This document shows positions 31,312 to 42,032 of a DNA stretch of 64,000 nucleotides, piece after piece. The notes under the pieces were generated by a model that searched no databases, had not been told where the DNA came from, and saw nothing but the letters and a program-made list of their open reading frames with translations. Every line of letters begins with the position of its first letter. The stretch's first letter is position 1. The position numbers and the translations under genes are program-made. The stretch covers positions 62,001 to 126,000 of the forward strand of contig PLYI01000087.1 of the NCBI GenBank assembly GCA_003151735.1, given 5' to 3'. The DNA comes from Candidatus Bathyarchaeota archaeon. Its GTDB lineage: Archaea > Thermoproteota > Bathyarchaeia > Bathyarchaeales > Bathycorpusculaceae.

Positions 31312-31360
31312 ATGGTGCGGTCGCCGGGATTTGAACCCGGGATCATTAGCTTGGAAGGCT
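31312..31360 (+). repeat. Left attachment site: 49-bp copy of the tRNA-Gly 3' half
   Basis: A 49-bp sequence beginning ATGGTGCGGTCGCCGGGATT, identical to 41984-42032, where it forms the CCA end, T arm and part of the anticodon arm of tRNA-Gly. Flanking bases differ on both sides. This is the far boundary of an element integrated at the tRNA 3' half. Confidence 0.93.
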
Positions 31361-32233
31361 CGTCAGAAAGAGATTGATTGGGAAGACTTTCACAAATGGA
31401 TGTTGAAGACTTGCAGACCAGAGCATAGCAGAGTTATTGTTACGCAATCCAAGAAGTACTACCAGTGTTTGCTAAATCATGACTTCAGTGAAATAAGCAA
31501 TCTCAAAGAAACGACAAGACCCAACGCAATGAAAGCTCTCGCCGCACTTTCAAAATACCTGGGTATGCATGAAGATTTCAAGTTGCTTGTTAAGAATTAC
31601 AGTTTGAAGTGGACGGGTAGAAGTGCTGACGACTTAATTGTCGATAGAATAACTAAGGTGAACAATCCAAATGAAATCTTTGAATGGATAAAAAAAGTCA
31701 AGCAGGTTAGACCTGACCTTTTTGAATTCATGAGTTTTATGACAGTAACTGGACTAAGATATGTTGAAGCAGTATCAAGCTATAATTTGATAATTACGCT
31801 TAGCAACGAAGACCGGCTCAATGAATATTACAATGCTGAAACTGAAACACTTGAACATTTTAGATTTAAGAAAATTTTTTTCAGAAGAAGCAAGAAAGCT
31901 TTCCTTAGCTTTGTTTCAAAGGCAATGGTAAATAGCATTAGCCAAAAAAAGGCGATTGCACGTCAATCTACCGTTACTTCTGCAGTAAGAAAGAAAGGTT
32001 TGAAATGCCAATTCTCAGACATCAGAGAAGCACATGGAACCTTAATGACTAAACATTTGAAAGATAACGAAATCGATTTCTTGCATGGTAGAGTAACAAC
32101 TAACGTATTTATGAGAAACTACTTCAACCCTTCATTAATCAGTGATTTGAAAACGAGAACTTTCGAAGCTATTAGTGAGATAGAGGTAAAAATTCAGGAA
32201 GATAGTAAGCGTTCAACTATAGAGTGCACTTAA
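31331..32233 (+). CDS. Archaeal tyrosine integrase, C-terminal catalytic part int(C)
   Basis: Up to 300 aa in the integrated state, opening inside the left attachment repeat. Catalytic-region motifs are GLRYVEA (first Arg), RKKGLK, SDIREAHGT (second Arg region), LHGR and the nucleophilic Tyr in MRNYFNP. This is the SSV-type archaeal integrase fold. The natural start is missing here; the first 43 residues are encoded at 41904-42032 at the other end. Circularisation would yield 333 aa, about the length of SSV1 integrase. In the integrated form it is probably not expressed as an active enzyme. Confidence 0.88.
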   Translation: MNPGSLAWKARQKEIDWEDFHKWMLKTCRPEHSRVIVTQSKKYYQCLLNHDFSEISNLKETTRPNAMKALAALSKYLGMHEDFKLLVKNYSLKWTGRSADDLIVDRITKVNNPNEIFEWIKKVKQVRPDLFEFMSFMTVTGLRYVEAVSSYNLIITLSNEDRLNEYYNAETETLEHFRFKKIFFRRSKKAFLSFVSKAMVNSISQKKAIARQSTVTSAVRKKGLKCQFSDIREAHGTLMTKHLKDNEIDFLHGRVTTNVFMRNYFNPSLISDLKTRTFEAISEIEVKIQEDSKRSTIECT

Positions 32234-32383
32234 CTCATCGGTTTTTTTAGTAAAACGCTGGTAGAGCAAGATTTCGAATAAGTCACAGAAATGGGAAAGA
32301 GGCAATTGTTTGTAGTATTTAGGACTGACCGCTGATATAGTGTTATTTACCGCCCGATCAAATAATGTCTATCATTATAGTAA

Positions 32384-33115
32384 TTAGGGGAAACTACGTG
32401 TAAGTAGCTTATGTTGCGATTTTTCCAATGACTCTATTGGTGGAGACTGCCAATTAAACCGTTTGAGTACTTCGAGCGTTTCATTTACCGCAATCTCAGC
32501 GCTTTGTTCTATCAATATTTTTATTGGAATCTCTTTTTCTCTTGGAAGAATGTCAATATGACAAACGCATCCGTCTAAATAACCCCAACCAATATCGAAT
32601 GAAGAAAGTCGGCGATTTAATAACCCGTGAAGTTTAAGAGAAATAGCCGCTGTCCCATCAAACAAACCCTTCTTAGATAATTCCATAGCAAATTGGTAAA
32701 TTTCGGTCATACTCCATAACGTCATAGTTATTTCAAGAATAGACATCGGCTTGATAGATGCATATTTGGAGACCCCTCCAAAAAGCGGTCGTTGTTCGCC
32801 TAACCAGTCTTCATGTAGGGCAAACAAGTGTACGAATTGTCCGCTCTGATACATTCGCCAAAACTCTTTGTGTTCATCCCAATCTACAAACGACTCAACG
32901 TAATCAATGCCGCAATAAGGCGCGGGGTGGTGCCCAACGTGAGGATAATCCCATCCTCTAAGTTGAATTCTCGATTCTTCTACGATTTTCAGGCATTCAG
33001 GCAAATCCATAATTCGTTCTTTTTCAAACTTTAAGGGTCTAATAATAACTTCCCAATATCCTCGACTTTTTATTTTGGAAAGTGTTTGCTCTGGATTTGT
33101 GTTTTCATCGCTCAT
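32384..33115 (-). CDS. TIR-partner protein resembling the C-terminal module of AlbA_2/Schlafen-like proteins
   Basis: A 243-aa cytosolic protein. RGYWEVIIRPLKFEKERI, QLRGWDYPHVG and FWRMYQSGQFVHLFALHEDW resemble, from memory, a conserved module found C-terminal to AlbA_2 DNA-binding domains in bacterial proteins; here it stands alone. The middle region (SLKLHGLLNRRL) and tail carry no known catalytic motif. Its ATG immediately follows the TIR gene stop (TAAATG), so it is translationally coupled and probably acts with the TIR protein, perhaps as sensor or regulator. That role is inference. Confidence 0.75.
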   Translation of the reverse strand: MSDENTNPEQTLSKIKSRGYWEVIIRPLKFEKERIMDLPECLKIVEESRIQLRGWDYPHVGHHPAPYCGIDYVESFVDWDEHKEFWRMYQSGQFVHLFALHEDWLGEQRPLFGGVSKYASIKPMSILEITMTLWSMTEIYQFAMELSKKGLFDGTAAISLKLHGLLNRRLSSFDIGWGYLDGCVCHIDILPREKEIPIKILIEQSAEIAVNETLEVLKRFNWQSPPIESLEKSQHKLLTRSFP

Positions 33116-33691
33116 TTAAAGAATACCCTCCAACTGCTTGTCAAAAAGATCTTTATCGTTTGATGTTGTGGTAGGCATTTTATGCTCTTTTAATACTGTA
33201 ACCGCTTTTCTAAGCAATTCTTGTTTTGTTTCAAAAATAATTTGCTGTTGTTTTCCAAGGTCCAACTCTTCAGTATCTAAAGTGATTTTTAAATGAGGAC
33301 GAAGGTCGCAATGTCTAAGATAGATGAATTTCTTGTCAGCAGATTTTCTTGCCAAGCTGAGTTCTTTTTTAATTTCAACTGATAGCTCAAAACCAGCGGT
33401 AATAATAAGTAAGAAGTTTTTACTCTCAATAAGAGCGTTATCCCTTGTTGTCGTCCACTCATCTGTCCCTCTAAACTTTTCTGGTATATCTTTAATGTCA
33501 AGAAATGTATGAATACCTAATTCTTCCAGTCCCATTTGTAAGTGCTCTGCAAAGTCTTCGCCTGAGTTTCTTTTGTAGCAGATAAATGCATCAAAGGTCA
33601 AGTGTACTGCCAGAATATGAGAGATATTTTTTAGAGTTAATAGTCTTTTGCAATTACAGCCTGACTTAGAAAACCATTTGAATAAATCCAT
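33116..33691 (-). CDS. TIR-domain protein
   Basis: A 191-aa protein. The TIR domain spans about 32-165: strand A FDAFICYKRN, helix GEDFAEHLQMGLEELGI, BB-loop region FLDIKDIPEKF, SKNFLLIITAGF, and SVEIKKELSLA with the candidate NADase glutamate (E110). Bacterial and archaeal TIR proteins degrade NAD+ or make signalling cADPR isomers in antiviral defence. The N-terminal 30 residues are basic and Cys-containing. First gene of a two-gene operon. No ThsA-like SIR2/SLOG gene is near, so it is not standard Thoeris. Confidence 0.88.
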   Translation of the reverse strand: MDLFKWFSKSGCNCKRLLTLKNISHILAVHLTFDAFICYKRNSGEDFAEHLQMGLEELGIHTFLDIKDIPEKFRGTDEWTTTRDNALIESKNFLLIITAGFELSVEIKKELSLARKSADKKFIYLRHCDLRPHLKITLDTEELDLGKQQQIIFETKQELLRKAVTVLKEHKMPTTTSNDKDLFDKQLEGIL

Positions 33692-33723
33692 GAGCCAATT
33701 TTCTTGGTAATTCAGAGATTTGT

Positions 33724-33770
33724 AAACACGATTTTTCCCACATGCTATCTATAGGGGATTTTTCGTGTTT
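33724..33770. promoter_or_regulatory. Dyad site A of the element
   Basis: AAACACGATTTTTCCC, then 14 bases, then GGGGATTTTTCGTGTTT. The outer arms (AAACACGA/TCGTGTTT) and CCC/GGG cores are inverted. A second copy occurs at 40583-40629. It lies between the divergent TIR operon and the RarA-C-like gene, overlapping the start of the latter. Likely a protein-binding site for element regulation or replication. Confidence 0.6.
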
Positions 33771-34395
33771 TCAAAGTCAGACTAAAAGCTTATTTGTTAA
33801 GTTGCCTCAAGCGAGTTTACAAGAAGGGAAAACATTGGTAAACACAAAAAGCGGTTATGACCTATTCGAGCTATTGAGTGCTTTGCAAAAGTGCATACGC
33901 AGAGGATTAGAGTATGAAGCTGCACATTTTGCTGTTGAATTAGAAGAGTTTGGCTCATCGGGGCAAACCATGTTATGGAACAGACTGAAAATCATGGCTT
34001 CGGAAGATGTAGGTCCAGCTAATCCGTTTATCTCAGTTTTGATGGATGTTTTGCATAAACAGTATCTCGCAGAGAAGAGCAAAGTCGCTGAAAGTTCATA
34101 CAGACTTTTCATGGTTAATGCAGTTGTTTGCTTGTGTCGCAGTCCCAAAAGTAGAATCACTGATGACTTGTTGAATGTTGTTTATTCTGAGCGAGATTCT
34201 GATGGCAAGCGATTACCTATTCCTGATTTTGCTCTTGACATGCATACAGCTAAAGGAAAGGCAATGGGTCGAGGAATAGATTATTTTTTCACTGAAGGCA
34301 ACAAGGTTGAAAATGAGGTGTTTGCAAATCCCTATACTGAGAGAGCTAAAGAACTGTTGAAAAAACATGGCAAACCTGATGTTTCTTCTTTTTAA
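33742..34395 (+). CDS. RarA/MgsA C-terminal-like domain protein without ATPase
   Basis: A 217-aa protein. SGYDLFELLSALQKCIRRG, MLWNRLKIMASEDVGPANP and MGRGIDYFFTEGNKVENE resemble the C-terminal oligomerisation domain of RarA/MgsA (clamp-loader-like AAA+ family, where ASEDIG is conserved), but no Walker A or B motif is present. Similar stand-alone domains occur on mobile elements. It may modulate host replication or recombination machinery. The first codons overlap dyad site A, so the true start could be internal. Confidence 0.65.
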   Translation: MLSIGDFSCFQSQTKSLFVKLPQASLQEGKTLVNTKSGYDLFELLSALQKCIRRGLEYEAAHFAVELEEFGSSGQTMLWNRLKIMASEDVGPANPFISVLMDVLHKQYLAEKSKVAESSYRLFMVNAVVCLCRSPKSRITDDLLNVVYSERDSDGKRLPIPDFALDMHTAKGKAMGRGIDYFFTEGNKVENEVFANPYTERAKELLKKHGKPDVSSF

Positions 34396-34486
34396 CGAGG
34401 TTTATTGTAACCAAAGATTGTAATTAGTCCTTTTTGCCATAATTTATAACTATTAATCGCCTAATCACTGGAGTAGGTAAGCTGCA

Positions 34487-35338
34487 ATGGTGCGAAATGT
34501 TAGATTTACATGGGAACAAAGATTAGGTAATGTTGGTGAGAGCGAAATAAAGGGTCGCTTATCTTACTTTTCAACGGTTACGAAAATCGAAGATGATGTA
34601 GGTCTCGATTTTTATTGTGAATTATTAGAGCATGATAGTCCAACCAATGAATTCTATATACAGGCTAAAAGCACAGAATACTTTAACGAGAACTGGACTG
34701 CAAATATTAAAAAATCAACCATATTGTACTGGCTATGGAAACCTAACCCTGTTTACATAATTGTTTACGATGAACCTGCTAAGAACTGTTATTGGATGGC
34801 AATAGAGGATATGAGGTATGACCTATTTGACAAATTATTTAAGACAAATACGGATTCTGTCAACTTAAAGTTTGATAATTCAAAGTTATTGAAAAAAGGA
34901 AAAGACCTGAATGAAGATTTTATCAAAAAAATGAAAGATGATAAAGCATCAATAGAGCAATTCAAAGGACAACCAACATTAAAAGGAGATGGCTATGTCA
35001 GACAATTGCCTGGTGCCCCAAGAAATGAGCATGAATTCATTCAGACAAGGGAAAATATTCGCGTAAGTTTGTACTCTCTTGTTTCACGCTATATTTCGCA
35101 TAATGACCTACAAACAGCAAGGTTATATTGCGAATTTTTAGCGCAGTTCGACCCAACGGGGCACTATAATCACTTTGTTTGGTTAGGTCAAATAAATTTA
35201 GCACTTGGAGACAAAACCTTGGCTCGAAAGAGCTTGGGGCAAGCACTTTGGATTTGTGAAAATGACCCAAATTGGCCCAAAGAATCGATGGATAGTTTGA
35301 AAAATCAAATTCGACAGCTAATAAGAGAATGCGTTTAA
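34487..35338 (+). CDS. DUF4365 nuclease-like protein with C-terminal helical repeats
   Basis: A 283-aa protein. Residues 15-130 fit DUF4365, a predicted PD-(D/E)XK nuclease fold: GESEIKGRLSYFS, DDVGLDFYCEL (D41, E45) and FYIQAKS (Q59-x-K61), then a PNPVYIIVYD strand and a YWMAI strand. Residues about 190-283 form helical hairpins (LQTARLYCEFLAQFDPTGHY, LGDKTLARKSLGQALWICEN) like TPR repeats. DUF4365 genes are common in defence contexts. ATG start, downstream of the RarA-C-like gene by 91 bases. AT-rich codon use sets it apart from chromosomal genes. Confidence 0.8.
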   Translation: MVRNVRFTWEQRLGNVGESEIKGRLSYFSTVTKIEDDVGLDFYCELLEHDSPTNEFYIQAKSTEYFNENWTANIKKSTILYWLWKPNPVYIIVYDEPAKNCYWMAIEDMRYDLFDKLFKTNTDSVNLKFDNSKLLKKGKDLNEDFIKKMKDDKASIEQFKGQPTLKGDGYVRQLPGAPRNEHEFIQTRENIRVSLYSLVSRYISHNDLQTARLYCEFLAQFDPTGHYNHFVWLGQINLALGDKTLARKSLGQALWICENDPNWPKESMDSLKNQIRQLIRECV

Positions 35339-35488
35339 ACCAATAGTAGTAGATGAGGACGTGGGACGTATCAAACCCCCCAGCCGAAAAAGCTGTATAG
35401 GGAATATCTCGGAACCAGAATTAAGCATATTTTGCACGTTGTTTAGGAATTTAATTGGAGTAAATTGATAGATTTCTATGGAGTCTAA

Positions 35489-36181
35489 TCATACTACTTT
35501 TTGGGTTTGTTTGGGTTCGTTTTTGTATTCTTCAAATATTGGCTTCATTATGGCACTGTATTCCTTTCTCCATATCTTCTTATCATAAAGATATACCGCC
35601 AAGAAAAGAGCGCCTGATACGGTTGCAAGCAGAAGAAAAACCAAAACACCATGAATATTTATTCTCAAAAAAGAGCGAGACACAGCGAATAAAAGCAAGA
35701 CTGAGTCGGCAACAAATGTTGCCTGAAAACCTAATAGTAGCCCTCTTACGATTGAATCTCGTATTACAAAAAAATCATTGTAATTACTGTAACCTTTTTG
35801 TTTCATCCAGCTATAGAATCTTATGTCGTCTATGTTAGGTTTAATTCTTTTCGATATTGGCTTCACTGCTTGCTTGTTTTTAGCTATTTTATTCCATGCA
35901 CTCTCAATATAGAATCTGAATCGATTGTTGAATCCACCATTACCAATGACATAATCCTCTAACAAGAAAAAACCAATCCCAATGATAAATGAACAAAGTG
36001 CGATTACTGCAAAACCCGCTAACATCTCTGTAGCAGTCGCATTGGTGAAAGGATTGGATATTAACTGAGGAATAAAAAATCGCAGTGGAGAAAGCAAGAG
36101 AAAGATTAATCCAGAAATTAACATTAGAATGACGTAAGCTGGAGGAAATACATCTAATGCTTTTTCGGTAATGTCAGACAT
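35489..36181 (-). CDS. Uncharacterised four-helix membrane protein of the element
   Basis: A 230-aa protein with four membrane segments at about 15-37, 52-73, 147-168 and 177-198, arranged as two pairs around a 70-residue basic cytosolic loop (KRIKPNIDDIRFYSWMKQKG). No family recognised. Could be a membrane effector or an unrelated cargo gene. ATG start. Confidence 0.65.
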   Translation of the reverse strand: MSDITEKALDVFPPAYVILMLISGLIFLLLSPLRFFIPQLISNPFTNATATEMLAGFAVIALCSFIIGIGFFLLEDYVIGNGGFNNRFRFYIESAWNKIAKNKQAVKPISKRIKPNIDDIRFYSWMKQKGYSNYNDFFVIRDSIVRGLLLGFQATFVADSVLLLFAVSRSFLRINIHGVLVFLLLATVSGALFLAVYLYDKKIWRKEYSAIMKPIFEEYKNEPKQTQKVV

Positions 36182-36288
36182 TGGCTCGCTCTCTTCTTGT
36201 GTACTGTGTTGGTTGTCCCTAAAAGATTTTCCAACCGGTTAGTTGGGCAATGCTAAAGGGTAGACATTGCGATTTGAGTAAATCTGGT

Positions 36289-36720
36289 TTATTCTTGTAT
36301 TATTTCGTATGAAGTTGTTATTTCCGCCGTTTTTCTAAGCATAGCTCCAACTGAGCAGTATTTTTCGTTTGATAGTTGAATCGCTCGCTCCACCGCTTCT
36401 TTGCTTACGTTTTTTCCTTTGACTATGTATTTTATTTGGATTTTAGTGTAGACTTCGGGCGGTTCATCACTTCTTTCTCCTTCAATATCAACCCAGTAAC
36501 CTGAAATGTTTTGGCGCTTCTTCTTTAGAATGTTAACAACATCAAAACTTGTGCACCCGGCAAGGCAAGCTAAAAGTGCTTCCATAGGTGAAGGGGCGGT
36601 TTCTTCTCCCCCGTATTTTTTGGGCGCATCAAAGTTGATTGTGAGTCCGTTGGGGTTTTTTGCTTCAAAACGAAAGTTGCCTTTCCACTCAAGAGTCATC
36701 TTCTTTTTGTCGTCAGACAT
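36289..36720 (-). CDS. OsmC-family peroxiredoxin-like protein
   Basis: A 143-aa OsmC/Ohr-fold protein, start at ATG 36720 (MSDDKKKMTLEW); an upstream extension of 67 codons is not family-like. The SPMEALLACLAGCTSFDVV segment holds the first conserved cysteine and NEKYCSVGAML the second, the pair that reduces organic peroxides. GGEETAPSP is also typical. Unusual cargo for a mobile element; base composition is closer to the chromosome than to the TIR-side genes. Confidence 0.9.
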   Translation of the reverse strand: MSDDKKKMTLEWKGNFRFEAKNPNGLTINFDAPKKYGGEETAPSPMEALLACLAGCTSFDVVNILKKKRQNISGYWVDIEGERSDEPPEVYTKIQIKYIVKGKNVSKEAVERAIQLSNEKYCSVGAMLRKTAEITTSYEIIQE

Positions 36721-36896
36721 GCTTTCTATGTTGAATCTGGGAGAGAAAAATGTTACTACCTTGAAGCGAACTCTGCATCCATTGCTTACCTGTGAGCTTC
36801 GTTTTTTCTCTACAAAACAGACATCCAAAATTGCATTAAGGCTTATATTAGAGTCAGAGGCTTGTTTGATTAACAAGAACTTTAGGAGAAGAAAAT

Positions 36897-37682
36897 ATGA
36901 AAACAAAAAATTATTTGGCATTATTGATTACCATTGCTTTTCTAATGTCAACCTTCGCTCCTTTGATAGCAGTTACAGGTGCCGAATTGGCATTGGCGCC
37001 GAGAATAGGCATCGACCAGAGCACCGCTTCTAACTGGAGTGGATATGCAGCTGTACCATCAAGTGGTTCAGTATCTTCAGTCTCAGGGTCATGGATAGTT
37101 CCAGCAGTGACAGGTGCAAGACGAACAACTGCTTACTCTTCATTCTGGGTAGGCATTGACGGATACAACTCAGGCACAGTGGAACAGATAGGAACAGACT
37201 CAGACATTCAAAACGGGAAAGCAACATACTACGCATGGTTCGAATTCTATCCAAATCCAGCATACAAATTACTTAGGTTCCCAGTAAGTCCGGGCGACAA
37301 AATTTCAGCCAGCGTTACCTACTCAAGCGGTACCTTTACAGTTTCTATAACTGACATAACCACCAGAAAAACGTTCTCTACATCATCAACAGTGCCAACA
37401 GCCGCCAGAACTTCAGCTGAATGGATCGCTGAAGCACCATGGTCTAATGGGGTTCTGCCGTTAGCTAACTTTGGGCAAGTGACTTTCAGCAGTTGCACCG
37501 CATCCGTTGGTGGGATATCGCAAACAATATCAAGCTTTGGACCAATGACAGCAGCTACGTCAGGAACTGGCTACGATGCAATCACTATGACTACCTCAAG
37601 CGGCACAGTGAAAGCGGTACCGTCGGGCTTAGATGACACAGGCGCTGGCTTCTCTGTGCATTGGTTTAATGCAGGACCATAA
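36897..37682 (+). CDS. Secreted G1-family glutamic endopeptidase (eqolisin-like)
   Basis: A 261-aa protein with a signal peptide (residues 1-29) and a beta-sandwich domain. SNWSGYAA, FWVGIDGY, the catalytic glutamine in VEQIGTD (Q97), YYAWFEFYP and the Glu-bearing AEWIAEAP (175-181) match peptidase family G1 (A4), which uses a Gln/Glu pair, is pepstatin-insensitive and usually works at acid pH. Secretion suggests digestion of extracellular protein, as proposed for sediment Bathyarchaeia. Divergent from OsmC. Confidence 0.88.
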   Translation: MKTKNYLALLITIAFLMSTFAPLIAVTGAELALAPRIGIDQSTASNWSGYAAVPSSGSVSSVSGSWIVPAVTGARRTTAYSSFWVGIDGYNSGTVEQIGTDSDIQNGKATYYAWFEFYPNPAYKLLRFPVSPGDKISASVTYSSGTFTVSITDITTRKTFSTSSTVPTAARTSAEWIAEAPWSNGVLPLANFGQVTFSSCTASVGGISQTISSFGPMTAATSGTGYDAITMTTSSGTVKAVPSGLDDTGAGFSVHWFNAGP

Positions 37683-38072
37683 ATCAAAAATTTTTCTCTT
37701 TTCTTTTTTTGTTTAGTTATCAGTAAGAGAGCTCGTTGGTAGATATTCGCAAAAATTGTTTACAATGGGACTCTACTGCTTAAAATGTTTCGACTTCTCT
37801 GATATCAGCTTGCTCAGTGTCTTAGAGAAGTGGGACCATCGAAAATCGTCAGCAAAGCTTCGTCAATAAGATATTTATTGGAACCAGAATTATTTGGTTT
37901 TCTAAAACTGCTTAGGAGCTTAAAGCATCAATTTGTAGGAGTTTATAGGTAGAGCCCCTTCAATTTTTTTATCAATCTGCTTCTTAAGTTTTGCAGTGCT
38001 TCCAGCTTAGCATTCAGAAAGCAATGGTTTTAAAAGGGTGCAGATATTAGCGAGGGTAGCTGGTGAGGACAA
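37683..38072. other. Intergenic stretch with terminator and no clear gene
   Basis: Starts with a T-rich terminator (TTTTTCTCTTTTCTTTTTTTG, 37688-37710 region) for the peptidase gene. The rest is AT-rich. One 34-codon ATG frame at 37765-37869 with YCLKC near its N-terminus is too short to call. A GGTGAGG at 38062-38068 precedes the next small membrane gene. Confidence 0.5.
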
Positions 38073-38354
38073 ATAAATAACTGGGTCATCATTAAGAAAT
38101 TCTCCTTTTGGTTCGGTGTAGTATTCGTAGTTTTTACAGTCTTGACTGGAGTAACAAATTACGGGTATAATCATGTTGTATATACCTCAGTTGCTCCTGC
38201 GAGTCTATTCATTTACAGTTTCTTAATAGCAATTTTGCCATACTTGCTCGCCGCTGTTATTTCATTCGTGGTGTTCGCTTTCAGTTCAAAGGAATTAGAA
38301 TCGGCAGCTGAAAAAGAACCTAAACCACAAGAAACAGAAGACCTCTATCGATAG
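38073..38354 (+). CDS. Small two-helix membrane protein, apparent ATA start
   Basis: The ATG/GTG/TTG-based frame starts at TTG 38142 (70 aa) and would begin in the middle of a hydrophobic helix. Upstream in frame the peptide NNWVIIKKFSFWFGVVFVVF completes a first membrane segment, beginning at ATA 38073 with GGTGAGG 4-6 bases before it and a stop shortly upstream. The second segment is FLIAILPYLLAAVISFVVFA, then a charged tail ending QETEDLYR. No family recognised. Start at ATA is inference; TTG 38142 is the alternative. Confidence 0.5.
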   Translation: MNNWVIIKKFSFWFGVVFVVFTVLTGVTNYGYNHVVYTSVAPASLFIYSFLIAILPYLLAAVISFVVFAFSSKELESAAEKEPKPQETEDLYR

Positions 38355-38361
38355 CTGTTCC

Positions 38362-38616
38362 CTAAGTAGTAGATAATTGAGATTCGATTTTTGCCCAGCG
38401 AGCTTGCTTTTGCTCTGCTTCGATGAAATCTTTCTGCTCAAGATGGCGGTGCACATGGACCGAGCAATTATAAAAATTTATAGAAACGCCATACTTTTCG
38501 AACATAGCGATAAGCTGCAAATATGTTAGGTGCTCAACGTGAAACCCGTATGTGAATGATGTAATGAGCCACTCTTCGCTTTGACAAATTTTGCAATTAA
38601 GTTGTTTGTGTTTTAT
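38362..38616 (-). CDS. Small Cys/His protein, apparent ATA start
   Basis: A continuous 84-codon frame with strong protein character: NCKICQSEEW near the N-terminus, HVEHLTYLQLIAMFEKYG, then FYNCSVHVHRHLEQKDF and a basic-acidic helix. The CxxC with Cys and His residues suggests zinc binding. Between the upstream stop and the CxxC there is no ATG, GTG or TTG; ATA AAA CAC AAA would give (M)KHK. It may start at ATA, or be a fragment. Transcribed away from the helicase-like gene across the ACACTG palindrome. Confidence 0.55.
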   Translation of the reverse strand: MKHKQLNCKICQSEEWLITSFTYGFHVEHLTYLQLIAMFEKYGVSINFYNCSVHVHRHLEQKDFIEAEQKQARWAKIESQLSTT

Positions 38617-38617
38617 T

Positions 38618-38639
38618 ACACTGGTTTATTGTACAGTGT
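38618..38639. promoter_or_regulatory. Palindrome ACACTG-N10-CAGTGT between divergent element genes
   Basis: Perfect 6-bp inverted arms separated by 10 bases, one helical turn, between the small Cys/His gene and the helicase-like gene. Typical size for a dimeric repressor operator. Confidence 0.55.
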
Positions 38640-38684
38640 CAATGTTTTTACGAAAGCAAGCTATGAATCTAAAGGGGCTTGAGT

Positions 38685-40613
38685 GTGTCAACAGCGAATA
38701 GTGCCTTTGAAAAACAAGATTTGATGGCAGAATATATTCTTGCGAATGGAAAAGGCAAGGTAATTACTATTAGAAAAGCTACTCGCGCGGGAGCAACATT
38801 TAGCCTTCTGAAAAGAGCGTTTGAATTGGGACAAAAAACAGTCATTGTAGCGCCGTACAAGAAAATTTTTGATGAAACTGTTGATGATGTTGCACAAAGT
38901 TTTCCCGCTGGATACAGACCGAAAGTTCTTCGAATAACAGCTAACAAAGAAATGTGCAAGAAAATCCAAGAAAAAATCACTGAGCATCCTGAGTTAGAGA
39001 AATTGCCATTTCATATCAGACCCAGTTGTGAAGAATGTGAGTATAACGACCCTTCTGAGTGTTTACTCCAAGAAGCTATTGCAAGTGATGATTGGAACAT
39101 AATGGGCATAACATATGCCAAGTTGAATGCAATAACTCGTGGGAATTCAGAAATCGCGAAGTTGCTCATTGAAAAAATTAAGTCAGCAGACAACTTGGTT
39201 ATGGATGAGTTCACAACAGGTGTTCTTACAACTGCACCATCGTTTGAAATTGTTAACTCTTTTGAGACACTTCAGACCAAGTTCCAGTCCGAGCAAAGAA
39301 TGCTCGAAGCAAAAACTCCAGATGAAGTTTTCTTTTGGGGTGGCTTGAATCTTTTTGCTCTCTATGCTAAATATGCAGTCGAAAAACTGGCACCTGGAAA
39401 GCACGAGATTTTTGAGAATACAATTACTGACGATGTTGAAGACTTTTTTGTGAGGAAAGTATCAAGATGTTGGAATATAATCGAACGCCTCACTTTAGAA
39501 AGTAATGACACTAAACTTCTTCAACAAATTATTCAGGTCATAACAGCAAAAAGGCTGATATCAATCAAATCGACCAAGGGTATTGTTACCTTACAACCTG
39601 TAGAAGACATGAACGAGCGGGCAATCAGAGGATATGACTATCTCAAAGACTTCGTCAAAGGCTTTTCTTCGGAAAAGAAACTGGTTGCATTAGTTGATGC
39701 GTGTTTACCCGATTTGAATCTTGGCGAGCTACTTGGATTGGAGATAACCAATTTTAGATGGGGCGACCCCTTAGACACTAACAAGTCACAGCTCATAATT
39801 TGTGACACACGAAAAATAGGTAACAAAGACTTTTTCAAAAACCCAAAACTTCAGAATCAAATAAAGGATATTATTAATCTGGAAAGTAAGCAACAAGGGG
39901 AAAAAACGGTTGCTATAGTGGCTTTAAACAAACGCATCCATAACCAAATCAAGAATGTCTGGATGAATAAAAGCGAGATACCGACTATCTTTGAAACTTA
40001 TTATCGAAGTGAATACTCAAGAGGTTTTACCATAGACCCGAATCATCGTAGTTTAGTATTGGTGGGAGCACCATATATTCCTAAAGTTTCGTATTTGGCT
40101 GAGACTTTTGGAACCGATTTATTAACAGCCTTTCAGAAGTCGGACATGAAGTCAGCTTTTATTAACATGATAGGGCGAGTGAAAGACCCGACTGGTAAAC
40201 AAAAAAGTATTGTTTTCGCAACAGGAATAACAGCTTCGGAAGTTAGGACTTTTGTCACACAGACAGGCTTGTCTCCCCCCTTGGTTGCTGAATTTCCTGT
40301 TAAGGGTGCTGATTCAATTGATTTTGCACTTCTGGCGCAACTATTTCGTTTTTCAGCAGAACTGAGTGATAAATGGGTAGATTTAGAAAGAGACTTACCG
40401 CTTTTGGTTAGAATACTCAGGCTTTGCGACAAGAAAGATAAGAAGGTGCCAGTTTCAGGGATTATGAAGGATAAAGAGAGAACCAATCAATTTGTGGCTA
40501 ACTACGCTGATGTTCTTGATAAATTTGGCATTAAAGTCATCAAAGATGGTAGTGGTTTACGGCTGGAATCTACCTTTGACTTAAAACAGTATTTTCCCCT
40601 TTATAGTATATAG
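38685..40613 (+). CDS. SF2 helicase-like protein with degenerate P-loop and Cys cluster
   Basis: About 642 aa. The N-terminus has a Walker A-like ITIRKATRAGATFSLLK in which the usual GK(T/S) is GAT, then TVIVAPYKK and the Walker B-like LVMDEFTTG. Between them, cysteines in KEMCKK, SCEECEY and PSECLL resemble the four-Cys iron-sulfur domain of XPD/DinG helicases. The C-terminal half has ATGITASEVRTF and a probable wHTH (VSGIMKDKERTNQFVANYAD). Probable element replication protein. GTG 38685 follows AAGGGG by 7 bases; TTG 38679 is closer. Helicase activity is uncertain without the lysine. Confidence 0.65.
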   Translation: MSTANSAFEKQDLMAEYILANGKGKVITIRKATRAGATFSLLKRAFELGQKTVIVAPYKKIFDETVDDVAQSFPAGYRPKVLRITANKEMCKKIQEKITEHPELEKLPFHIRPSCEECEYNDPSECLLQEAIASDDWNIMGITYAKLNAITRGNSEIAKLLIEKIKSADNLVMDEFTTGVLTTAPSFEIVNSFETLQTKFQSEQRMLEAKTPDEVFFWGGLNLFALYAKYAVEKLAPGKHEIFENTITDDVEDFFVRKVSRCWNIIERLTLESNDTKLLQQIIQVITAKRLISIKSTKGIVTLQPVEDMNERAIRGYDYLKDFVKGFSSEKKLVALVDACLPDLNLGELLGLEITNFRWGDPLDTNKSQLIICDTRKIGNKDFFKNPKLQNQIKDIINLESKQQGEKTVAIVALNKRIHNQIKNVWMNKSEIPTIFETYYRSEYSRGFTIDPNHRSLVLVGAPYIPKVSYLAETFGTDLLTAFQKSDMKSAFINMIGRVKDPTGKQKSIVFATGITASEVRTFVTQTGLSPPLVAEFPVKGADSIDFALLAQLFRFSAELSDKWVDLERDLPLLVRILRLCDKKDKKVPVSGIMKDKERTNQFVANYADVLDKFGIKVIKDGSGLRLESTFDLKQYFPLYSI

Positions 40614-40629
40614 GGGATTTTTTGTGTTT
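40583..40629. promoter_or_regulatory. Dyad site B of the element
   Basis: AAAACAGTATTTTCCCC, 13 bases, then GGGGATTTTTTGTGTTT. Same layout as dyad site A at 33724-33770; the right half and the TATAGGGGATTTTT core are nearly identical. Overlaps the 3' end of the helicase-like gene. Confidence 0.6.
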
Positions 40630-40735
40630 TGAAGGAGATTACTGTTTCCAAGAATATGTAGTTAGGTTAATAGGTATATGGTTAAAATTTATCGGGTAAA
40701 GCCTCATTTTGTACTCCTCTAAGCAAGCAAATGTA

Positions 40736-41344
40736 TTATTTCGCTGTTTTCATTGTAGCCAGCAAAAGTTTAACCAGTAAGTGAATTGTTCCGGTTATCA
40801 GGGGGATACAATCAATATTATTCATTGTTGGTTCAATGTCTAAAAACGAAAGTTCTTTTCCAGATAGCAGCATTTTTGAAATATTTCTCGGGTTTTTGTG
40901 AGCGACTCCATTTCTCAGAGTTGTCAGTTTTTCTGTAAATTTAACGTCCTCTTTATCAAAAATGCCCAACTGTTTTAAGACTTCTGTTACATCATGAAGG
41001 CTATTACGTTCCAAAAGACTACTGGCAATTTTTCTCTTTGCAGGAGTGGTTAAGTGATTAATTGTTTCTCTTACTGCAAGTCTCTCAAGAATACCGTGTA
41101 ATTCAATAATCATTGCCCCGTTTAGATTAAGTGAATATAAAATAAGAGGTGTATCCATGAGTGCCCATGTAATTGCTTCTGCTGCACCTCTGTTATTTGA
41201 ATTGGTCTCTGGAAATTTGGTATTAAATGCCTCAACAAACTTCTCCAACTTAGATTCAATATTTGGCAAATTATTTGAAAGCAGACCGACTATTTGTTGT
41301 ACCATTTTTGTCATTGCAATTTGATTTTCATTACTCATCATCAA
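40736..41344 (-). CDS. HEPN-like protein with RX4H motif
   Basis: A 202-aa helical protein. TLRNGVAHKNP contains R144-x4-H149, the HEPN ribonuclease motif, preceded by helices (ELHGILERLAVRETINHL). HEPN proteins cleave RNA in toxin-antitoxin, CRISPR and abortive-infection systems. No MNT nucleotidyltransferase antitoxin is next to it. AGAGG precedes ATG 41341. Fold call rests on one motif and helix pattern, so an inactive helical protein is possible. Confidence 0.6.
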   Translation of the reverse strand: MMMSNENQIAMTKMVQQIVGLLSNNLPNIESKLEKFVEAFNTKFPETNSNNRGAAEAITWALMDTPLILYSLNLNGAMIIELHGILERLAVRETINHLTTPAKRKIASSLLERNSLHDVTEVLKQLGIFDKEDVKFTEKLTTLRNGVAHKNPRNISKMLLSGKELSFLDIEPTMNNIDCIPLITGTIHLLVKLLLATMKTAK

Positions 41345-41521
41345 TCCTCTTTTACTAACTCATCTGTGGTTTTATATTTCATTTACTCAACCGACAATCT
41401 CTACTTGAAAAGCCTTTTAAGCCCAAAATGTGCTTATATCCACAAACGAGGTTTAAAAAATGACCGAAATAGAAAATAAGCCTGCTTGCGTAGACTATAG
41501 TTTCAAGAAGAGGCGGTAGAC

Positions 41522-41725
41522 ATGCAAAAATACGCGAGAATGACCAAGTCACAAAGAAACGAATTTGAAAGACATTTAGACGCTCACGTTAATGCTGTTT
41601 TGGCAGACATCGAATCTTTAAGGGAAGCAATAAAACTAAAAGACTTTGCAAAAATCAAATCTGATTCAGATAGAATCGCTACTTACATCTATCAAGAAAT
41701 AGACTTGCACCATGAAATTTTTTGA
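41522..41725 (+). CDS. Small helical protein of the element
   Basis: 67 aa, charged, two predicted helices (SQRNEFERHLDAHVNAVLAD and SLREAIKLKDFAKIKSD). No family recognised. ATG start. Directly upstream of another small gene and the integrase N-terminal part, so possibly a regulator of integration. Confidence 0.6.
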   Translation: MQKYARMTKSQRNEFERHLDAHVNAVLADIESLREAIKLKDFAKIKSDSDRIATYIYQEIDLHHEIF

Positions 41726-41731
41726 AGCGGA

Positions 41732-41923
41732 GTGGAGACCGAAAATAAGATGTTAAGCCAAAAAGAGTTAGAGTTTCTGCGCTCTCCAGAGAATTTTAAT
41801 AGCAATTACAAGTATTTCTTGAAACATCAGATTAAAAATAAAGTTCAAGCTTTGCAAAATGAACTTGAGCTTTTAAGTGACGCGGGATTCTTGAATAATC
41901 TTAGTGAAAAGTCTGAGTCTTAG
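41732..41923 (+). CDS. Small helical protein upstream of the integrase N-terminal part
   Basis: 63 aa from GTG 41732 or 57 aa from ATG 41750. LSQKELEFLRSPENF, YKYFLKHQIKNKVQALQNEL resemble, from memory, short archaeal ORFs often found just before integrases (an L-S-x-K-E-x-x-F-L start and a basic helix). It overlaps the int(N) start by 20 bases, suggesting coupling to the integrase when the element is circular. Confidence 0.6.
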   Translation: METENKMLSQKELEFLRSPENFNSNYKYFLKHQIKNKVQALQNELELLSDAGFLNNLSEKSES

Positions 41924-42032
41924 GGATTTCAATAAGAACCAAGAAAACAGCATAAGCTCAAATCAAGCGGATTTAGGGGAAAGATGGTGCGGTCGCCGGG
42001 ATTTGAACCCGGGATCATTAGCTTGGAAGGCT
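41904..42032 (+). CDS. Integrase N-terminal fragment int(N)
   Basis: GTG 41904 opens a frame of 43 codons up to the end of the right repeat; it ends ...CGRRDLNPGSLAWKA, the translation of the tRNA 3' half. The same frame continues from the left repeat into int(C) (next residues RQKEIDWEDFH). In the integrated state the frame runs on into the tRNA 5' half (stop at 42090-42092). Confidence 0.8.
41984..42032 (+). repeat. Right attachment site, 49-bp repeat inside tRNA-Gly
   Basis: Identical to 31312-31360. It covers the encoded CCA, acceptor 3' strand, T arm, variable loop, and 3' side of the anticodon arm including the anticodon of the minus-strand tRNA. Confidence 0.93.

Follow-up and report, generated by a model that had tools for sequence, protein, structure and literature searches.

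We identified an archaeal gene pair that encodes a TIR-domain protein and a partner, here called X, of an apparently undescribed family. The pair lies within the window (the 64,000-nucleotide stretch of a Candidatus Bathyarchaeota genome analysed here) and is, judged from its sequence, a TIR-X protein split at the linker by one stop codon. This joining of a known effector domain to an undescribed partner family is a real and apparently undescribed combination, rare as TIR-X and set within a broader bacterial family.

The TIR-domain protein is encoded on the minus strand at 33116-33601 and has 161 aa when read from a probable TTG start. It matches Pfam TIR_2 at 3.9e-9 with 37.5 bits (curated cut-off 28), and a fused relative, described below, scores 45 bits; the predicted structure of that relative best matches TIR folds in the PDB. 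The identification as a TIR protein, already made in a preliminary description of this DNA, is secure. Both open reading frames reported there are present, the TIR frame reaching 191 aa if read from the ATG at 33691 (33116-33691, minus strand). The first 30 residues of that longer reading have no counterpart in the fused relative, whose homology begins exactly at the in-frame TTG of the window at 33601 (MTFDAFICYK versus MSYQAFICYK), so the shorter protein is the probable one. The glutamate proposed earlier as catalytic, E110, proved to be conserved but changes its number, becoming E80 when counted from the probable TTG (33362-33364, minus strand). E80 is invariant in seven of seven related TIRs and lies in an ..EL helix, which a profile alignment matches to the plant TIR signature WCxxEL. 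By analogy, the domain is a candidate NADase that may cleave NAD+.

Other TIR proteins of the class, 42-58% identical to that of the window, occur without X in G126, G100, G000:C21 and G189. Inspected by eye, TIRs of this kind in the class are variously joined to a zinc-binding tail, next to a MinD-like ATPase, to a membrane segment at the N-terminus or to a different type of C-terminal extension. The window genome itself has two more TIR homologues (L041 and L043, on contigs C21 and C80), both of which carry a membrane-like segment at the N-terminus; L043 is frameshifted.

X is encoded at 32384-33115 on the minus strand and has 243 aa. The TIR gene ends in TAA (33116-33118) and the ATG of X follows at 33113-33115, with zero gap and in one reading frame. 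The immediate succession of TAA and ATG had been pointed out in the preliminary description, and the coupling turned out to be tighter still: in G081 (Ca. Bathycorpusculum grumuli, WRNB01000049), a genome of the same genus, TIR and X form one 401-aa open reading frame. Identity of the fused protein to the window pair is 60% in the TIR half and 47% in the X half. At the junction (33113-33118, minus strand) the window reads KQLEGIL-stop-MSDEN and the G081 protein KQLDAFDLMENH, with Leu-Met in the relative where the window has its stop. Since the TAA and ATG of the window are adjacent and in frame, a single codon lies between the split and fused forms. The fusion is stronger evidence than the junction for a joint function of TIR and X. 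The earlier argument that coupling this tight implies a stoichiometric pair is not supported, as the ratio of two proteins cannot be read from a stop codon adjoining an ATG.

TIR-X is present in two of the 257 genomes of the class, the window genome and G081. A genuine system had been expected to recur in other genomes, an expectation that TIR with X satisfies only narrowly, through G081, while X with AlbA_2 recurs widely. The G081 copy lies off the window-type element: that genome has no integrase match, and apart from TIR-X its contig has nothing in common with the window element. A transposase-like fragment, recognised by eye, lies upstream of TIR-X in G081.

The X protein of the window carries the conserved motifs LRGWDYPH, WRxYxSGQFxH and TExxxFA, and searches of Pfam, PADLOC and NCBIfam gave no match to it. 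A scan of genome contigs with this single protein returned no loci; an alignment of three X sequences, including a Rhizobium copy, later gave 21 loci in 84,980 genomes. These comprise the archaeal relative and 20 loci from many bacterial phyla, among which the spread of X is patchy. The 22 members are homologous over their whole length and share 12 invariant columns, including RGW, the TE of a central helix and a C-terminal Q. None of the 22 matches PADLOC, and their PHROGs matches are at chance level only. X is apparently an undescribed family on these comparisons, and is not a known housekeeping family, a possibility raised earlier.

In a tree of X, the two archaeal sequences are joined with 99/99 support, and archaeal X falls outside a bacterial group of 11 rows, among them Rhizobiales and some Patescibacteria, with 98/98 support. 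Resolution is confined to such shallower groups, the deeper branches having no resolved order. X was not found in the phage collection. The plasmid search recovered it only in Rhizobium beringeri records, broken by a frameshift, and the single match among viral contigs is identical in sequence to a Rhizobium region. The X gene of the R. beringeri plasmid copy of AlbA_2-X (L003:5261-6700) is frameshifted and lacks annotation.

We identified 17 bacterial loci in which X is the second gene of a tight pair, its start no more than a few dozen bases from where the upstream gene ends. The upstream genes are standalone, encode about 185-227 aa, and mostly overlap X at the stop and start codons (TTATGA, GTGATG). 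All 17 match SLFN_AlbA_2, as does the gene upstream of X on the Rhizobium plasmid. AlbA_2 is fused to X in L012 (Aminicenantes). The X of L014 (Elusimicrobia) is fused to another N-terminal domain and directly follows an AlbA_2-HATPase protein. A resemblance of this N-terminal domain to TIR, seen by eye, was unconfirmed by Pfam, by PDB sequences and by hhalign against a TIR profile. Wherever upstream DNA is present, X thus has a first component directly upstream: 17 split loci and one fusion have AlbA_2 there, two loci TIR and one the other domain; one locus cut off upstream (L017) is excluded from this count. The libraries and the literature searched, the latter mostly openly accessible, gave no account of these AlbA_2-X units, which appear to be undescribed, and the literature gave none of TIR together with X.

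The preliminary description had likened the partner to the C-terminal region of AlbA_2 proteins without their DNA-binding domain. Both parts of this were correct: X pairs with AlbA_2 in most of the bacterial loci, and AlbA_2 is absent from the archaeal pair and has no match in the whole window genome, in a search with positive controls. Compared with the bacterial SLFN/AlbA_2 (PF04326) two-gene units, the window pair has a homologous X, the same gene order, a similar stop-start junction and a similar tail peptide, and differs in its first component, which is AlbA_2 in the bacterial units and TIR in the window.

The two-gene order with overlapping or adjacent stop and start codons, common in X units, would also suit a toxin-antitoxin or guard arrangement. 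TIR would then be a toxin and X, made from the coupled gene, its bound inhibitor; loss or capture of X would free TIR, and the fused form would be self-inhibited. That X can exist as a separate protein fits this arrangement, while the fused TIR-X and AlbA_2-X proteins argue against an antitoxin that needs degradation on its own, and AlbA_2 is not generally known as a toxin. We think this reading rather unlikely. X as an inhibitor is nevertheless the main rival to X as a sensor, and the two are compatible.

The TIR gene directly upstream of the window X occupies the place of AlbA_2, and its product resembles AlbA_2 partners at the C-terminus. The TIR protein ends in LFDKQLEGIL (33119-33148, minus strand), and 14 of the 17 AlbA_2 partners of X have an FDKELGGL-like C-terminus. 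Among 400,000 random ends with the composition of the TIR protein itself, 297 reached as high a score against the tails of the AlbA_2 partners, a figure that is optimistic because the motif had been noticed before it was tested. The corresponding linker of the fused G081 protein, FFKKQLDAF, scores poorly against the AlbA_2 tails, and the best tail-motif scores of the X-less TIRs of G126, G100, G000:C21 and G189 are below that of the window TIR. The shared tail peptide suggests that TIR replaced AlbA_2 in front of X and that the junction peptide was retained. The exchange probably ran from AlbA_2 to TIR, since AlbA_2-X is more widely spread.

The stop codon at the junction could also mark a decaying copy, in which a nonsense mutation interrupted the window TIR-X and left free TIR with little or no X. 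The fused relative does have a sense codon where the window has its stop, and a second TIR homologue of the window genome is frameshifted. The frame of X has nevertheless stayed intact over 243 codons while identity to the relative is down to 47%, an ATG follows the stop at once, the split falls at the same site as in bacterial AlbA_2|X pairs, and the TIR protein retains both its Glu and its tail. Decay therefore seems to us quite unlikely.

The pair is cargo of a mobile element. The element (31312-42032) is complete, spans 10.7 kb and lies in tRNA-Gly(TCC), with an integrase at one end. It is bounded by a 49-bp exact direct repeat (att), one copy on the integrase side (31312-31360) and the other at the far end within the tRNA gene (41984-42032), where it matches the tRNA end. 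The tyrosine integrase (31331-32233, plus strand) matches Pfam Phage_integr_3 weakly (6e-4, below cut-off). A 73% identical integrase occurs in G106, a genome of the same genus, at the same tRNA and between the same chromosomal flanks, with entirely different cargo between the repeats. The repeats and this related integrase bear out the earlier placement of the pair on an element. Given the G106 integrase with different cargo at the same site, the tRNA-Gly(TCC) gene seems to be a favoured integration site in the genus, and the difference in cargo between the two elements is as expected of accessory genes. The genus Bathycorpusculum includes termite-gut species.

Several other genes accompany the pair on the element. 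A DUF4365 protein (34487-35338, plus strand) matches PADLOC Aga_REase at 1e-8 and has relatives among the nucleases found alongside short Argonautes. The protein at 40736-41344 (minus strand) has a weak HEPN_Apea match (7e-4, below cut-off). A 644-aa protein at 38679-40613 (plus strand) is helicase-like by eye, lacks a Pfam match and is possibly the replication protein of the element. The gene at 33742-34395 (plus strand) encodes an MgsA_C domain (the C-terminal part of RarA/MgsA) without the AAA+ ATPase (8e-9); it diverges from the TIR gene, starting a short distance ahead of it. A 42-bp imperfect repeat (33733-33774 and 40592-40633; 76%, common TATAGGGGATTTTT) lies at two gene borders of the element and is possibly a shared control site.

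Several neighbours of AlbA_2-X suggest a link to defence. First, in L007, AlbA_2-X is followed within a few bases by an N6/N4 DNA methylase and a ResIII helicase in an apparent operon. Second, AlbA_2-X lies between hsdM and hsdS in L010 and near a type IIG restriction-modification gene in L021. Finally, PADLOC defence candidates lie nearby in L012 and L020. Restriction-modification or defence neighbours are thus found in five of about 20 loci, with flanks of at most 6 kb, a count that stands without a background rate; for these reasons they offer support for a link to defence and not proof. No known defence gene adjoins either TIR-X locus, and the DUF4365 and HEPN-like genes of the element are only suggestive. 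The proposal of an undescribed defence system has therefore held in part: the combination is apparently undescribed, while defence is still something we infer, from the neighbours of AlbA_2-X relatives and not of TIR-X loci.

A unit of this kind might also have a non-immune role, with AlbA_2-X as a DNA- or RNA-binding regulator or a participant in nucleic-acid processing and the TIR version as a non-enzymatic scaffold. AlbA_2 has been described as DNA-binding (PMC6299218), and in the flanks examined, recognised defence genes are missing from most AlbA_2-X loci. The patchy spread over many phyla, the operons with restriction-modification genes, the location on a mobile element and the conserved candidate catalytic Glu of TIR all weigh against such a role, which we judge improbable.

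An AlphaFold2 model of X has a mean pLDDT of 92 and a pTM of 0.91. A fold search of this model against the PDB and a viral structure library returned no match at E 0.001, and the X family profile had no match to PDB sequences up to E 10. Weak fold matches to TBP and AdoMet-decarboxylase were judged to be chance. The fold comparison covers PDB and viral structures, on which a new fold is not established. The fused TIR-X model (pLDDT 90, pTM 0.66) has two confident domains and a joining helix at 151-179; in the PDB it comes closest to SPARTA TIR-APAZ, plant TIRs, AbTir, SpbK and SARM1.

TIR-X resembles SPARTA in that a TIR effector is joined to a C-terminal control module, and TIR-APAZ chains are its top fold matches, presumably via the TIR half. 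Unlike the SPARTA module, X has no PDB match by profile or fold, though SPARTA structures are in the library, so that no APAZ domain was found behind TIR, and the window genome lacks a short pAgo (Piwi) gene. The earlier remark that no prokaryotic Argonaute lies nearby extends to the whole genome, where Piwi had no match while a control genome was positive. TIR-X shares with Thoeris a TIR protein within a small module, and the window TIR matches the Thoeris ThsB model weakly (4e-4 over a short part). A genome search for ThsA-type SLOG (STALD) gave no match with the control equally silent, and none was found among the element proteins scanned. A search for SAVED, as in CBASS TIR-SAVED, likewise gave no match with a silent control, and X has no Pfam match.

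SpbK is reported to be a TIR NADase that responds to a phage trigger with abortive infection (PMC12847820). Like SpbK and other single TIR abortive-infection proteins, the window protein has a TIR domain that is a candidate NADase; unlike them, it has as its control region X, which belongs to a family of its own with links to AlbA_2.

We propose, with confidence that is evenly balanced, that TIR-X is a TIR NADase controlled by X that acts in abortive defence as one functional module on a tRNA-integrating element. X, as the controlling part, would sense an infection cue and would hold or assemble TIR domains through the linker or tail. The TIR domain would consume NAD+ or make an NAD-derived signal and so kill or arrest the cell. 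X may first have served AlbA_2, which would then have been swapped for TIR with the junction peptide kept. We propose the enzymatic step, the trigger and the antiviral effect from the general behaviour of TIR immune proteins (such as SpbK and SPARTA). X has no fold match, and its role as a sensor is therefore a guess from position.

A wider reading, which we regard as possible though short of probable, makes X a new-fold immune sensor plugged into AlbA_2, TIR and perhaps the Elusimicrobia fusion domain via a conserved docking peptide, with TIR-X and AlbA_2-X as two types of one undescribed defence system. If the proposed function is correct, an undescribed control module would be added to the TIR immune proteins, and the archaeal pair would open a first way into the AlbA_2-X pairs that occur here and there among bacteria. 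NAD+ loss would then be a simple readout for what X senses, which would be less easily tested with AlbA_2-X alone.
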